Source: Planctomycetota bacterium (GTDB lineage: Bacteria; Planctomycetota; Planctomycetia; Pirellulales; Pirellulaceae). Taken from it: DNA of 64,000 nt. The DNA lies in assembly GCA_026692865.1 (NCBI GenBank), contig JAPLNI010000042.1:1-64000 (forward strand), in the 5' to 3' direction. The position numbers were made by a program, and so were the translations under genes. Each line of letters starts with the position of its first letter. Positions within the stretch are counted from its first letter, which is position 1. The notes beneath the pieces are model-generated. The model was not told the DNA's origin and searched no databases. It worked only from the letters and a program-made list of their open reading frames with translations. Shown here in pieces: positions 2,304 through 50,660 of the stretch.

Positions 2304-2341
2304 ATAAGTCTTAAAGCTTCGCCGAGACGGAGCACTCCACA
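2304..2341 (+). repeat. Solo right end of the 155-bp repeat family
   Basis: The sequence ATAAGTCTTAAAGCTTCGCC...GGAGCACTCCA matches the right end of the full repeats at 33066-33220 and 33221-33375. The terminal hairpin is kept, with one G-T wobble. No matching left end was found about 150 bp upstream, so this is a partial or diverged copy. It ends 4 bp from the stop codon of the DUF1501 gene. Confidence 0.65.
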
Positions 2342-32174: not shown

Positions 32175-32439
32175 GTCAAACCCTTTCGAGTACCTAGTTC
32201 ATCTTTGCGGCATCGGAACAACCCGAGCAAGCCGTATGGCTTACCTGCCTGGAAGAAAATACCCCACCCGCAGACTCGAAGAGGGAACTTGAGTAAAATC
32301 GGGCCAGTTTTCTGTATAGCCGGGCCTTTCCCTGAGGGTGGTGAGGGATGTAGGGCTTGTAGGGCGTTATCACGGTGTCGCTTGCTCAATCCATGTGTTT
32401 GTTAGGCGCACGGCGACGAGTTACCTTTTGAAAGATTTT

Positions 32440-33030
32440 ATGCCATTCACCAACCAATTCACGGTCAGCTTGCCCGAGTGGGCTGTGGCTGCCCAAGCAG
32501 AACTACCCACCCACATTCCGAGTGTCGAATCCCAAATGCGGGAGGTGATTCGCTTTTCGCAGCTGAATATTGACCATCAAACCGGCGGCCCGTTTGCCGC
32601 GGGAGTGTTCGAGCGAGACACTGGTAAGCGAATCGTGATCGGCGTCAACCGTGTCGTACCCTCGAACGTTTCATCGGCTCATGCGGAGGTGGTTGCATTA
32701 TCGTTGGCGCAACAGATTCTTCAGACGTGGGACTTGGGAAGCGTTTCGTTACCCGCGTTACAGTTGGTGGTGAACTGGCGTCCGTGTGCAATGTGTTATG
32801 GAGCAACACTCTGGAGCGGCATTCGGTCCTTAGTAATAGCCGGAAGCGACGACGCTTGCGAAACTATTACAGGATTTGATGAAGGCCCAATGCACCCTGA
32901 GTGGAAAGAAGAGATGATTAAGCGAGGTATCTCGATCCAAGATGGCCTACTGTATGAAGAAGCAATAGCCGTTTTCAGAAACTTTCGAGACCGTGGGTTC
33001 GTCGTCTACAATGGTAGAAGCTCCAGCTGA
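32440..33030 (+). CDS. Nucleoside deaminase (cytidine/guanine deaminase fold)
   Basis: A 196-residue zinc-dependent deaminase. The frame opens at 32338, but the ATG at 32440 (MPFTNQFTVSLPEW) gives a natural N-terminus. The catalytic zinc motif is complete: His81-Ala-Glu83 (HAEVVALSLAQ) and Cys116/Cys119 (PCAMC). Glu83 should act as the proton shuttle. The enzyme family hydrolyses an amino group from a purine, pyrimidine or nucleoside; the EGPMHPEWKEEMIKRGI region and length resemble the guanine/cytosine deaminase group. The exact substrate is not clear. It is followed by the tandem 155-bp repeats. Confidence 0.88.
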   Translation: MPFTNQFTVSLPEWAVAAQAELPTHIPSVESQMREVIRFSQLNIDHQTGGPFAAGVFERDTGKRIVIGVNRVVPSNVSSAHAEVVALSLAQQILQTWDLGSVSLPALQLVVNWRPCAMCYGATLWSGIRSLVIAGSDDACETITGFDEGPMHPEWKEEMIKRGISIQDGLLYEEAIAVFRNFRDRGFVVYNGRSSS

Positions 33031-33065
33031 GAGTTAATCGCGCGTTTGATTGGGGAGCCTGCAAA

Positions 33066-33220
33066 TTTGGAGTGCTGTGACTTGTCACAGCTTTCGGGCG
33101 AGCGACGTTGAAAAAAGAAAGATTCTCCCGTGACAACTCAATCGTTTGGTTAGCAAAGACTTTTTAGATTGATCACCGCTAGATAAGTCTTAAAGCTCCG
33201 CCAAGCCGGAGCACTCCAAA
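33066..33220 (+). repeat. 155-bp element with 11-bp terminal inverted repeats, copy A
   Basis: The unit begins TTTGGAGTGCT and ends AGCACTCCAAA, perfect 11-bp inverted ends. Just inside the left end is an 18-bp hairpin (GCTGTGACTTGTCACAGC, 33074-33091); just inside the right end is another (GCTCCGCCAAGCCGGAGC). The interior has no coding capacity. The layout resembles a MITE or a structured REP-type element. Copy B follows head to tail with high similarity. Confidence 0.85.
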
Positions 33221-33375
33221 TTTGGACTGCTGTGACTTGTCACAGCTTTCGGGCGAGCGATAGTGAAAAAAGAAAGATTCTCGCGTGACAACTGAATCAT
33301 TTGGTTAGCGAAGACTTTTGAGAATGACCGCCGAAAGATAAGTCTTAAAGCTCCGCCAAGCAGGAGCACTCCAAA
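33221..33375 (+). repeat. 155-bp element, copy B (tandem)
   Basis: Same length and layout as copy A, with scattered substitutions (for example TTTGGACTGCT at the left end, so one terminal base no longer pairs). The left hairpin is identical and the right one differs by one base in its stem. The copies differ mostly in the centre, so the hairpins look conserved. Confidence 0.85.
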
Positions 33376-33394
33376 TGGAGCCGTTCGCCATCAA

Positions 33395-33438
33395 TCAACG
33401 AAAAGAGGGATGGTTAGATTACTCAAACCATCCCTCTT
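33395..33438 (-). terminator. Terminator of the Cys-rich protein gene
   Basis: On the minus strand a 13-bp perfect stem (AAGAGGGATGGTT / AACCATCCCTCTT) with a 10-base loop is followed by TTCGTTGATTG. It lies about 50 bp past the stop codon at 33487. The stem is strong, but the T-run is interrupted. Confidence 0.8.
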
Positions 33439-33486
33439 CGTTAAGGGTTTAACTCAAGATGTTCAGCTCGACGTCGACTCTTCTAA

Positions 33487-34059
33487 CTAAGCACCGCAGC
33501 CGCAGCTTGGAGCAGCAACGGGAGCTTCGCAACCGCAGCTTGGAGCTGGTGCTTCGCAGCACACTGGCTTGACCTTGCTTTTCATATGGCACTTGATCTT
33601 GGAAAACAATGCCTTGATCTTAGCACCGTGAGGCTTGCAGCAAGGAGCTGGAGCTTCGCAACCACAGCTTGGAGCTGCTTCTTCGCAACCACAGCTAGGA
33701 GCAGCAGGAGCTGCATCACAGCAAACAGGAGCTGGTGCAGCGCACTCAACTACAGGAGCTTCGCAACCACAGCTAGGAGCTGGTTCACAGCAGCCGTGTG
33801 CGTGGATCTTGCTGTGAAGCTTTCCGAAGAAGCTCTTTAGCAAATGAGGGCGAGCACAGCAGCTAGGTGCTGGAGCTTCGCAACCGCAGCTTGGTGCTGC
33901 TTCAACTTCGCATCCGCAGCTTGGTGCTGTTTCACAGGCAGGAGCCGTGTCACAACAACCAGCACCACGATGCAACAATCCAAAACCAGCCGAAGCGGTG
34001 GTAGCCGAAACACCAACCGAAGCGACTGCAACTAGGGCGATAGCAATAAAGCGACGCAT
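33487..34059 (-). CDS. Cys-rich SCGC-repeat exported protein
   Basis: A 190-residue secreted protein. The frame opens at 34218, but the ATG at 34059 directly starts a signal peptide (MRRFIAIALVAVASVGVSA...), so it is preferred. The mature part contains 29 cysteines, counted by eye, including seven SCGC units embedded in Ala/Pro-rich APSCGCEAP repeats plus several CC pairs. Two basic segments (LLKSFFGKLHSKIHAHG and HGAKIKALFSKIKCHMKSK) interrupt the repeats. Such a protein is either heavily disulfide-crosslinked, as in the cysteine-rich planctomycete cell wall, or metal-binding. It stands alone with its own strong terminator, so it may be highly expressed. Confidence 0.85.
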   Translation of the reverse strand: MRRFIAIALVAVASVGVSATTASAGFGLLHRGAGCCDTAPACETAPSCGCEVEAAPSCGCEAPAPSCCARPHLLKSFFGKLHSKIHAHGCCEPAPSCGCEAPVVECAAPAPVCCDAAPAAPSCGCEEAAPSCGCEAPAPCCKPHGAKIKALFSKIKCHMKSKVKPVCCEAPAPSCGCEAPVAAPSCGCGA

Positions 34060-39889: not shown

Positions 39890-40456
39890 ATGCAATACGA
39901 GCCTAAGATCATCTCAGTCGAAACGTCTCAATGTAAACCTAGGGGTACCCCTGAGCCGATGGCGTTAGCCACGGGTTCCCCCCGTTTCCCAAATTTTGTA
40001 TTTCCCCTCGAAGCAAGCGTCGATAGCTCGCAGAAAAAACCAGCCCCACGTCAAGCGTTTTCGCTCGTGGAGTTAATGGTTGTGATGATCATTATTGGGC
40101 TCTTAAGTAGCTTGGTCGCCGTGCAAACTCGAAGCTACTTGATTGCGAGTAAACAAAACGCAGCTCGCGCTGAAATCGCAACGATGGTGAGTGCTATCGA
40201 ATCCTTCTACGCGGACCAGTCGCGTTACCCAACGAACGATGAAGGAATTGAAATACTGACTCAGGGAACCAAAAGTTTTCCAGACGGTTTTCTTAAAAAG
40301 CTACCGCTTGATCCATGGCGTAACCCGTACGAATACGTGAGTCCAGGAGCTAACTCGCCTTTCGAGATCGTTTGTCTTGGCGCTGACGGTCGAGAAGGAG
40401 GCGAAGGTGGTGACACCGATATCACTAGCGAGACACTCGATGCGAAATCAAAGTAA
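39890..40456 (+). CDS. gspG: Major pseudopilin-like protein (GspG) with a repeat inside its leader
   Basis: A 188-residue class-III-type prepilin. The methylation/cleavage region is PRQA^FSLVELMVVMIIIGLL; here Ala replaces the usual Gly before the cleavage site. The hydrophobic helix and a GspG-like globular domain follow (YPTNDEGIEILTQ, LDPWRNPYEYVSPG and a calcium-loop-like GADGREGGEGGDTD end). Normal leaders are short, but the frame opens about 58 residues before the cleavage site because a 33-bp dispersed repeat (39952-39984) lies within it. An alternative ATG at 39959, inside the repeat, would still leave a leader of about 35 residues. gspG starts 33 bp after gspF. Confidence 0.9.
   Translation: MQYEPKIISVETSQCKPRGTPEPMALATGSPRFPNFVFPLEASVDSSQKKPAPRQAFSLVELMVVMIIIGLLSSLVAVQTRSYLIASKQNAARAEIATMVSAIESFYADQSRYPTNDEGIEILTQGTKSFPDGFLKKLPLDPWRNPYEYVSPGANSPFEIVCLGADGREGGEGGDTDITSETLDAKSK
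39952..39984 (+). repeat. 33-bp dispersed repeat, copy 1 (inside the gspG leader)
   Basis: Identical over 33 bp to 54803-54835. It contains GGC-GTTA-GCC and CGGG-TTCC-CCCG self-complementary parts, so each copy can form a pair of small hairpins. Immediately upstream is a 12-bp palindrome, AGGGGTACCCCT (39941-39952). The location in an open reading frame upstream of the prepilin cleavage site is unusual for a non-coding repeat. Confidence 0.85.
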
Positions 40457-50416: not shown

Positions 50417-50523
50417 GACAATCCTACTTCCCAAAAGTTAGTGAAAACCAGGGGGAGAGTCTAAGGCTGAACAGCTAATTTGGTCAAGCGTTCTTTGGAA
50501 GAGGTCCAGTTTGCCGGAACTCT

Positions 50524-50660
50524 TTTGGAGTGCTCCGGCCTGGCGGAGCTTTGGGGGAAGCGACTCTCAATTCATTGCGATTTGGCACTTTGTGGAGGGA
50601 GACTCGAAATGGCCAAAGCCTCTGGTGCCAGAAAGCTGCGACAAGTCGCAGCACTCCAAA
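50524..50660 (-). repeat. 137-bp member of the 155-bp repeat family, inverted
   Basis: The plus strand runs from TTTGGAGTGCTCCGG to GCAGCACTCCAAA, the same 11-bp inverted ends as copies A and B, in the opposite orientation. The two terminal hairpins are conserved: GCTGCGACTTGTCGCAGC on the minus strand replaces GCTGTGACTTGTCACAGC, a paired change that keeps the stem. The centre is shorter and unrelated. It lies 20 bp past the peroxiredoxin stop and upstream of purA. Confidence 0.8.

Follow-up and report, generated by a model that had tools for sequence, protein, structure and literature searches.

What are the two 155-bp units that stand head to tail between convergent open reading frames of a planctomycete, and by which enzyme could they have been spread? 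The units were noticed in a stretch of 64,000 nucleotides (contig JAPLNI010000042.1, positions 1 to 64,000, hereafter the window), and an earlier reading of it, made from the sequence alone, had taken them for MITE-like elements with 11-bp inverted ends and covarying hairpins. Here their anatomy, copy number, borders and gene context are analyzed genome-wide, and a putative partner enzyme is sought in the window's genome and in its relatives.

Results

Anatomy of the units

The head-to-tail pair was recovered at the positions listed in Table 1, both units being 90% identical with no gap in between. Each unit consists of two inverted REPs around a variable centre, the right end being the left motif on the opposite strand. 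One REP comprises the foot TTTGGAGT of 8 nt and a hairpin of 18 nt with the form GCTNNNN, a loop which is mostly CTYG, and NNNNAGC. Columns 1-6 of the foot are conserved to at least 97%, and column 7 is G in 145, C in 23 and A in 5 of 173 ends. The canonical GT[AG]G is absent at the foot of the hairpin, its place being taken by TTTGGAGT. Inverted foot-plus-hairpin REPs flanking a variable spacer are the arrangement of REPINs, and the 155-bp units are REPINs, not classical MITEs.

Table 1. Positions of the REPIN units, their parts and the neighbouring ORFs in the window.
Feature	Position	Strand	Remark
Solo right REPIN end	2304..2341	-	REP 2316-2341
ORF, stop 35 bp ahead of array	32338..33030	+	
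REPIN unit 1, 155 bp	33066..33220	+	
Left foot of unit 1, TTTGGAGT	33066..33073	+	
Left REP hairpin of unit 1, GCTGTGAC-TT-GTCACAGC	33074..33091	+	
Right REP hairpin of unit 1	33195..33212	-	foot 33213-33220, TTTGGAGT on minus strand
REPIN unit 2, 155 bp	33221..33375	+	0 gap to unit 1; variant left foot TTTGGACT
Left REP hairpin of unit 2	33229..33246	+	
Right REP hairpin of unit 2	33350..33367	-	foot 33368-33375
Convergent ORF, 243 aa	33487..34218	-	3' end 111 bp beyond array
Decayed REP, probably remnant of older REPIN	50494..50520	+	read from sequence
137-bp REPIN unit, short-centre class	50524..50660		CCG-type hairpin left, GCGAC-type right

The full units do have the ends TTTGGAGTGCT/AGCACTCCAAA, each followed inward by a hairpin, as the sequence-only reading had described, apart from the left end of unit 2, which reads TTTGGACTGCT. 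Both the 137-bp unit and the solo right end were found as it had described them. The former had been called an inverted copy: its hairpin types are indeed swapped, and its orientation is doubtful, as its spacer, compared with the family profile, reaches 0.9 bits in the forward direction and no score in the reverse one.

Covariation and folding

Among 137 distinct ends of the window's genome the stem pairs 3, 4, 5 and 7 form in 126, 122, 118 and 104 ends, respectively, whereas independent columns would give 92, 66, 76 and 76. The pairs 1, 2 and 6 show little variation, and the innermost pair is a G-G mismatch in 20 of the 137 ends. The compensatory change from GCTGTGAC/GTCACAGC to GCTGCGAC/GTCGCAGC, which had been noticed between copies in the window, is real and general across these ends.

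For the covariation statistics, which count copies and not independent events, 41 of 121 distinct ends were chosen for diversity and aligned, one odd end being removed. The covariation score amounted to 0.43 (0.16 shuffled) and 44 cells were changed on both sides (12.3 shuffled), and none of 500 shuffles reached either value. Two of the five measures are weaker: the pairs with two-sided change (5 vs 3.9 shuffled) and the further pair types (15 vs 12.1 shuffled) were reached by 98 and 20 of 500 shuffles, respectively. Controls with slid positions gave covariation scores of 0.05-0.24. Furthermore, the whole 155-bp unit folds better than shuffled sequences both as DNA (z -2.7) and as RNA (z -3.1), and the 137-bp unit does so as DNA (z -2.6).

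Pairing is therefore conserved, and the case that most copies would lack it, named beforehand as fatal to the idea of a selected fold, did not occur. Selection on the fold stands insofar as the pairing is kept; covariation and folding alone do not separate DNA from RNA, and DNA is favoured because of the foot and the enzyme described below.

Copy number and unit lengths

In the genome of 5.55 Mb (72 contigs) the end pattern, two mismatches being allowed, was matched 103 + 117 times, compared to 4 + 1 times for the reversed pattern, and BLAST with the unit gave 93 matches at E <=1; the repeats are thus not a product of chance. The genome stretches around the listed matches contain at least 82 complete units in at least 61 arrays as well as at least 68 single ends; the thresholds for calling units and ends were loose, and a few of the 232 ends are likely false. 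As expected for REPINs, the many copies are dispersed and chiefly intergenic: an overlap of more than 50 bp with a called ORF was seen for only 8 of 61 arrays, and seven of the ORFs concerned measure 100-145 aa and are perhaps spurious. The full-genome search proposed by the sequence-only reading thus revealed copies genome-wide, so that the similarity is not confined to the three sites of the window.

Concerning the centres, 54 of the 82 form a single BLAST cluster. The 28 outlying units were scored in both orientations against the profile of this cluster; 25 of their centres beat all 280 shuffles, some only just, and 17 exceed 5 bits. From the cluster and the profile scores we conclude that most or all units belong to one family with drifting centres. 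The conserved inner flanks read approximately GGGCGAGCGA on one side and GATAAGTCTTAAAGC on the other. Unit lengths lie between 135 and 156 bp for 71 of the 82 units and bunch around 137, 155 and 172 bp. A physical spacing rule was considered for these lengths and rejected, the alignment (23 rows, 22 units) suggesting that the units are homologous and differ by a central indel of about 18 bp, and that one 172-bp unit carries a local duplication of 17 bp. By a crude rule, the stem classes of the two paired hairpins differ in 62 of 82 units.

Borders and arrays

No target duplication was found in any of the 39 arrays with clean flanks, where such traces of insertion had been suggested as a check. 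These 39 were taken from the 61 arrays by excluding those with a further end nearby, and at least two of them still abut a partial end. Direct repeats of two bases at the borders numbered 0, compared to 1.1 expected from shuffled pairing, and those of at least five bases 0 compared to 0.5. Among 157 outer ends of the window's genome, position -1 next to TTT is occupied by C 101 times, by A 29 times, by T 24 times and by G 3 times; as the foot begins with T, most of these ends have a C|T junction. In other genomes the bias is one for pyrimidines (C 31, T 28, A 9 and G 6 for 74 ends). The last two foot bases as a simple guide to the cut are not borne out, because ends with the variant foot TTTGGAC keep the C at -1 in 13 of 18 cases. 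According to the available text of a study of these enzymes, TnpA-REP of E. coli and Stenotrophomonas cut at C|T and the Marinomonas enzyme at CT and CA (PMC8266576).

All 18 multi-unit arrays are arranged head to tail, ten of them with zero gap throughout and eight with gaps of 1-20 bp. In the array on contig C59 the gap of 20 bp nearly repeats the left flank, pointing to a joint duplication of unit and flank. Of 39 array members, 27 are most closely related to a unit of the same array and 12 to one elsewhere. Where members on C31 and C38 have their relatives elsewhere, the contig ends are probably two sides of one array; on C19, C21 and C52 neighbouring units are closer to units of other loci. 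On the basis of this pattern both local duplication and insertion beside an existing unit are likely. A four-unit array at C53:113713-114303 has gaps of 5 bp and one unit that is 36 bp shorter than the others.

Among the 30 contigs from which stretches were analyzed, 12 contig ends have a REP end at most 250 bp away, and longer arrays therefore probably broke the assembly. All 12 are high-numbered ends (of C26, C31, C35, C37, C38, C41, C43, C45, C47, C48, C53 and C56), with no low ends among them, which is perhaps a habit of the assembler.

Gene context

After exclusion of arrays at contig edges, 51 of the 61 arrays had ORFs called on both sides, of which 26 are convergent, 24 tandem and 1 divergent. 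Control intergenic gaps of at least 100 bp from the same stretches gave 17, 28 and 12, respectively (Fisher p 0.03 for convergent and 0.002 for divergent). For 46 of the 51 arrays the gene boundary closest by is a 3' end, and arrays lie a median of 11 bp from a gene 3' end (n=50). The observation that copies lie near gene 3' ends is true of the three window sites and extends to the genome, where 50 of 51 arrays are bordered by a 3' end on one side or both. In relatives a crude ORF caller was used, which is unreliable in GC-rich DNA: it placed 3' ends nearest in 3 of 11 cases in G099 (4 of 11 divergent), in 5 of 8 in G052 and in 7 of 9 in a mixed rest, so that the bias is not seen in G099 and not demonstrated in G052. 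The 3' bias is for this reason claimed for the window's genome only.

Beyond the array an inverted repeat (33403-33438) resembles a terminator stem, and because of its location the array may be transcribed. A scan of 32900-33500 for terminator patterns gave no match, and no Rfam match reached the gathering score. The convergent ORF behind the array is built of short repeats and is Cys-rich when read from the DNA. At the site of the 137-bp unit the same-genus genome G001 carries a REPIN-like insert of about 228 bp, compared to 158 bp in the window. This sole orthologous site recovered already carries an older REPIN-like insert, and no empty-site pair was found.

A RAYT clade linked to the REP in relatives

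The covariance model of the end, likewise suggested by the sequence-only reading, was built and used for genome searches. At E <=0.001 the REP was detected in 22 out of 296 searched genomes of this order, the window's genome (G000) being counted in both numbers and the REP counts per genome being lower bounds. With two mismatches the end pattern was matched 29 times in G010 (4 in the control) and 29 times in G017 (10 in the control); with one mismatch there were only 2 and 1 matches.

Between such REPs, G085 carries a frame-broken RAYT gene. Close relatives of its second half are encoded in G052, G230 and G265, and a profile of these three genes (A2) finds a further member in G017, a genome of the window's own family. 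G017 came from a sample of 60 relatives; the 22 positive genomes include G052 and G085 but not G230. In G017, G052, G230 and G085, which span three families, the REP or a close variant stands on both sides of the RAYT ORF, the nearest at 0-28 bp, so that four of the five clade genes are flanked; the fifth, in G265, has no such REP alongside. The ORF in G017 (TTG start as called) begins within a REP, and the REPIN opposite the RAYT start opens with TTTGGAGTGCGGTGACTTGTCACCGC, which is identical to the end at C28:277316 of the window's genome. The variants in G052 and G230 read, e.g., CATGGAGTGCGGCGATTCATCGCCGC and CTTGGACTGCGGCAGCCTGCTGCCGC.

For comparison, 95 RAYT-like loci of at least 20 bits were tabulated with a profile that included the four intact clade members. 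Eleven rows correspond to the five clade genes; in the other 84 rows, some genes occupying several, the stretches available contain no such REP at a distance of up to 1 kb. Three of the four genomes of the order sample with a close RAYT are REP-positive (hypergeometric p 0.0014, the cut-off of E 1e-20 having been set afterwards). Two further arrangements were noted: in G082 the REPINs at loci L186 and L207 (C140 and C270), 98 and 102 bp long, share identical pairs of end REPs in unlike flanks, possibly reflecting recent spread there, and at L059 (G044:C203) palindromes TAGCCCCCGGTGAATACACCGGGGGCAA, present in both orientations, flank an ORF region on either side in a further REP-like layout.

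The four intact clade members, among them L245 of G017 (191 aa) and L213 of G052 (195 aa), all carry the HuH motif NHYH and a Y..xN motif. At E <=0.1 each of them is matched by NCBIfam NF047646 (REP_Tyr_transpos) and by Pfam Y1_Tnp, L245 scoring 79.9 bits at a cut-off of 80 and 16.4 at a cut-off of 23, respectively. As at least one member scores below the model cut-off, surveys based on Pfam Y1 may miss these RAYTs. The sole PDB match of the clade is E. coli TnpA-REP (4er8, E 2e-11). Compared to 4er8, W94 is kept and E100 mostly kept; the position of Q95 holds Y, H or Q, that of H101 T, V or S, and that of R104 T in all four. W94, Q95, E100, H101 and R104 are the residues discussed for GTAG recognition in the text available of PMC6006769, and the differences seen in the aligned proteins fit a foot other than GTAG.

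Y1 transposases in the window's genome

A RAYT, which the sequence-only reading had named as a thing to look for, stands beside such ends in the four relatives named above; in the window's genome none was found. The clade profile gave no match at E 0.01 in this genome, which is 99.4% complete, nor in G027, which also has many REPs, and a close RAYT is absent in 19 of the 22 REP-positive genomes of the order sample, the window's included. REPs flanking a RAYT in the same genome, a usual but non-defining trait of REPINs, are thus missing from G000; some species reportedly lack REPtrons (PMC3733652, as far as its available text goes). Since no clade member was found, the REPINs of the window's genome look orphaned. 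The RAYT gene may also sit in an assembly gap, since assemblers easily drop a short gene between repeats.

Pfam revealed other Y1 transposases in this genome, namely the IS200-like L031, the class-3-like L032 and L033, and L034 with a long N-terminal part, and further the decayed RAYT L035 and L036 below threshold. L031 (C30:65438) had drawn suspicion by a REPIN right end 105 bp after its ORF, of which, as read from the sequence, only the right part abuts. It was rejected as partner, having palindromes of its own of the CCAGGGGCAACGCCCCTGG and TGGCCAAAGGCCA types. Its stretch L031:1180-2075 (~C30:65117-66012) comprises a TnpA bounded by CCAGGGGC...GCCCCTGG and TGGCC...GGCCA palindromes and adjoins the right REPIN part as if the left part had been replaced. 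L035, a RAYT with an internal stop and 21 bits to the clade, was rejected as decayed; its surrounding 10 kb hold no clear such REP and one weak chance match (L181).

L033 (C24:48069) was rejected as well, being flanked by other repeats and disfavoured by the linkage test. Its repeats carry the motif AACCCTGAGCCGATGGCGCT, which is the second repeat family of the window (39946-39996, CCCCTGAGCCGATGGCGTTAGCCACGGG). This family has at least 18 match rows in G001, a genome of the same genus, and may represent the REP of L033, with a CnGA-type foot.

Another candidate is L032 (C19:32291), which could serve the REPINs in trans as a single-copy gene. Two REPIN units follow about 950 bp downstream of it, and an orthologue of 89% identity exists in a same-genus genome that also has REPs. 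However, another ORF occupies the gap between L032 and these REPINs, the examined flanks of the orthologue (L038, L067) are free of REPs, and many homologues elsewhere are flanked by repeats of different sequence. G027, moreover, has the REPs and no L032 homologue at E 0.001. We therefore regard L032 as an unlikely partner.

Discussion

Apart from a different enzyme, a different kind of element has to be considered. The units might be non-mobile RNA elements, i.e. 3'-UTR hairpins, terminators or mRNA stabilisers, which were duplicated by recombination and are under selection as RNA. The tight placement at 3' ends, the folding beyond shuffles as RNA and also as DNA, and the terminator-like stem behind the array would be in line with such a role. 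The missing matches to Rfam and to terminator patterns, the location of the tested pairing in the ends and the RAYT link in relatives speak against it, and as the primary explanation it appears very unlikely; an RNA function could be a secondary role of the units. That they are MITEs of a DDE transposase with hairpins in their ends by chance, as the inverted ends of 11 bp and the bunched lengths might indicate, is scarcely credible given the lack of target duplications in 39 arrays, the C that precedes the ends with no duplicated target bounding them, and the RAYT genes flanked by such ends in four relatives. The earlier picture of dispersed, tandem-forming and geneless elements with conserved pairing near 3' ends is thereby retained, with a probable tie to a RAYT, which it had listed for checking, and only the derivation of a usual DDE MITE is given up, because there are no duplications, the ends are foot-plus-hairpin REPs, and a RAYT stands beside such ends in relatives.

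By far the most probable explanation is that the units are REPINs that were mobilised by a RAYT, whose gene has been lost here or remained unassembled, and that the population is now resident and decaying. The single-stranded hairpin with its foot would be the substrate of the RAYT, which would cleave at C|T directly ahead of the foot, on its 5' side, and then copy or move the unit, frequently to a place next to an earlier one and with no target duplication. Zero-gap head-to-tail arrays would, as proposed here, arise because units go in beside existing ones. The C|T junctions and the missing duplications agree with such mobilisation. The fitting enzyme would be the NHYH RAYT clade, which in relatives has this REP, or one closely similar to it, on both sides; its gene may have been lost in the window's genome or may be missing from the assembly. 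In the resident population arrays may still grow by slippage or recombination, and copies would survive chiefly just behind stop codons, where they cause the least disturbance.

REPINs and RAYTs are already known, and REPs have been described in planctomycetes too (PMC3733652, PMC6006769, PMC2817692, PMC8049555, PMC3116915). The comparisons which follow refer to the available text of the cited papers. In line with the REPINs of Pseudomonas fluorescens, the units combine inverted REPs and a diverse spacer, are non-autonomous and present in many copies, and leave single REPs as probable remnants (PMC3116915, PMC8049555). In contrast to these, whose foot is GT[AG]G, the foot is TTTGGAGT, the units mostly measure 135-156 bp, the hairpin classes are unlike in 62 of 82 units, and no cognate RAYT was found. 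The pairing of REPs of unlike type in opposite orientation is shared with the BIMEs of E. coli (PMC6006769, PMC8266576). With E. coli TnpA-REP the system has in common the dinucleotide C|T, there at the cleavage site and here at the junction, besides the match to 4er8 (PMC8266576), and W94; unlike TnpA-REP, the clade has Y/H/Q for Q95, T/V/S for H101 and T for R104 (PMC6006769).

Within the classification of TnpA-Y1 the clade resembles subclass 2.8 in its NHYH motif, in W followed by Y/H in three of four members, in its length of about 199 aa and in being REP-flanked. Subclass 2.8 comprised only Cyanobacteria in that sample and has GT[AG]G REPs, whereas the present clade occurs in the window's own order and shows Y[VT]H[QT]N[PA] and the foot TTTGGAGT. 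Class 3 is known from planctomycetes, with high-copy repeats and CnGA-foot hairpins, and L032 and L033, assigned by motif, are its relatives in the window's genome. Its foot and repeats are unlike this REP, and by the linkage test it is not the partner (all PMC6006769).

REP feet have been described, as far as the available text of the reports shows, as GT[AG]G, CGTC or atypical, as CnGA in class 3 (PMC3733652, PMC6006769, PMC2817692, PMC8049555). A search of the mainly open-access literature for planctomycete REPs and for the REP letter strings found no description of the foot TTTGGAGT or its RAYT. The novelty consequently lies in this foot and its RAYT; the identity of the units is well supported, and the mode of movement is inferred.

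It is tempting, if rather doubtful, to go one step further and to regard the RAYT clade of this order as recoded, i.e. as serving REPs with TTTGGA[GC]T or close variants after loss of the GTAG-reading residues while still cutting at C|T, with REPINs that outlive their enzyme and are put to host use at 3' regions. On such a reading large populations, some with arrays that break the assembly, would persist for long without the enzyme, within about ten bases of stop codons, and this placement would point to the host use.

The choice of the cut site could be steered in the Marinomonas enzyme, and corresponding attempts failed for the E. coli and Stenotrophomonas enzymes, according to the available text of PMC8266576. 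A natural system with another foot, other contact residues and the same C|T junction would offer a direct test of how RAYTs read the foot. Likewise, enzyme-free REPIN populations would test whether REPINs need RAYTs to persist, and they bear on models which, as presented in the available text of PMC8049555, require a benefit for the host.
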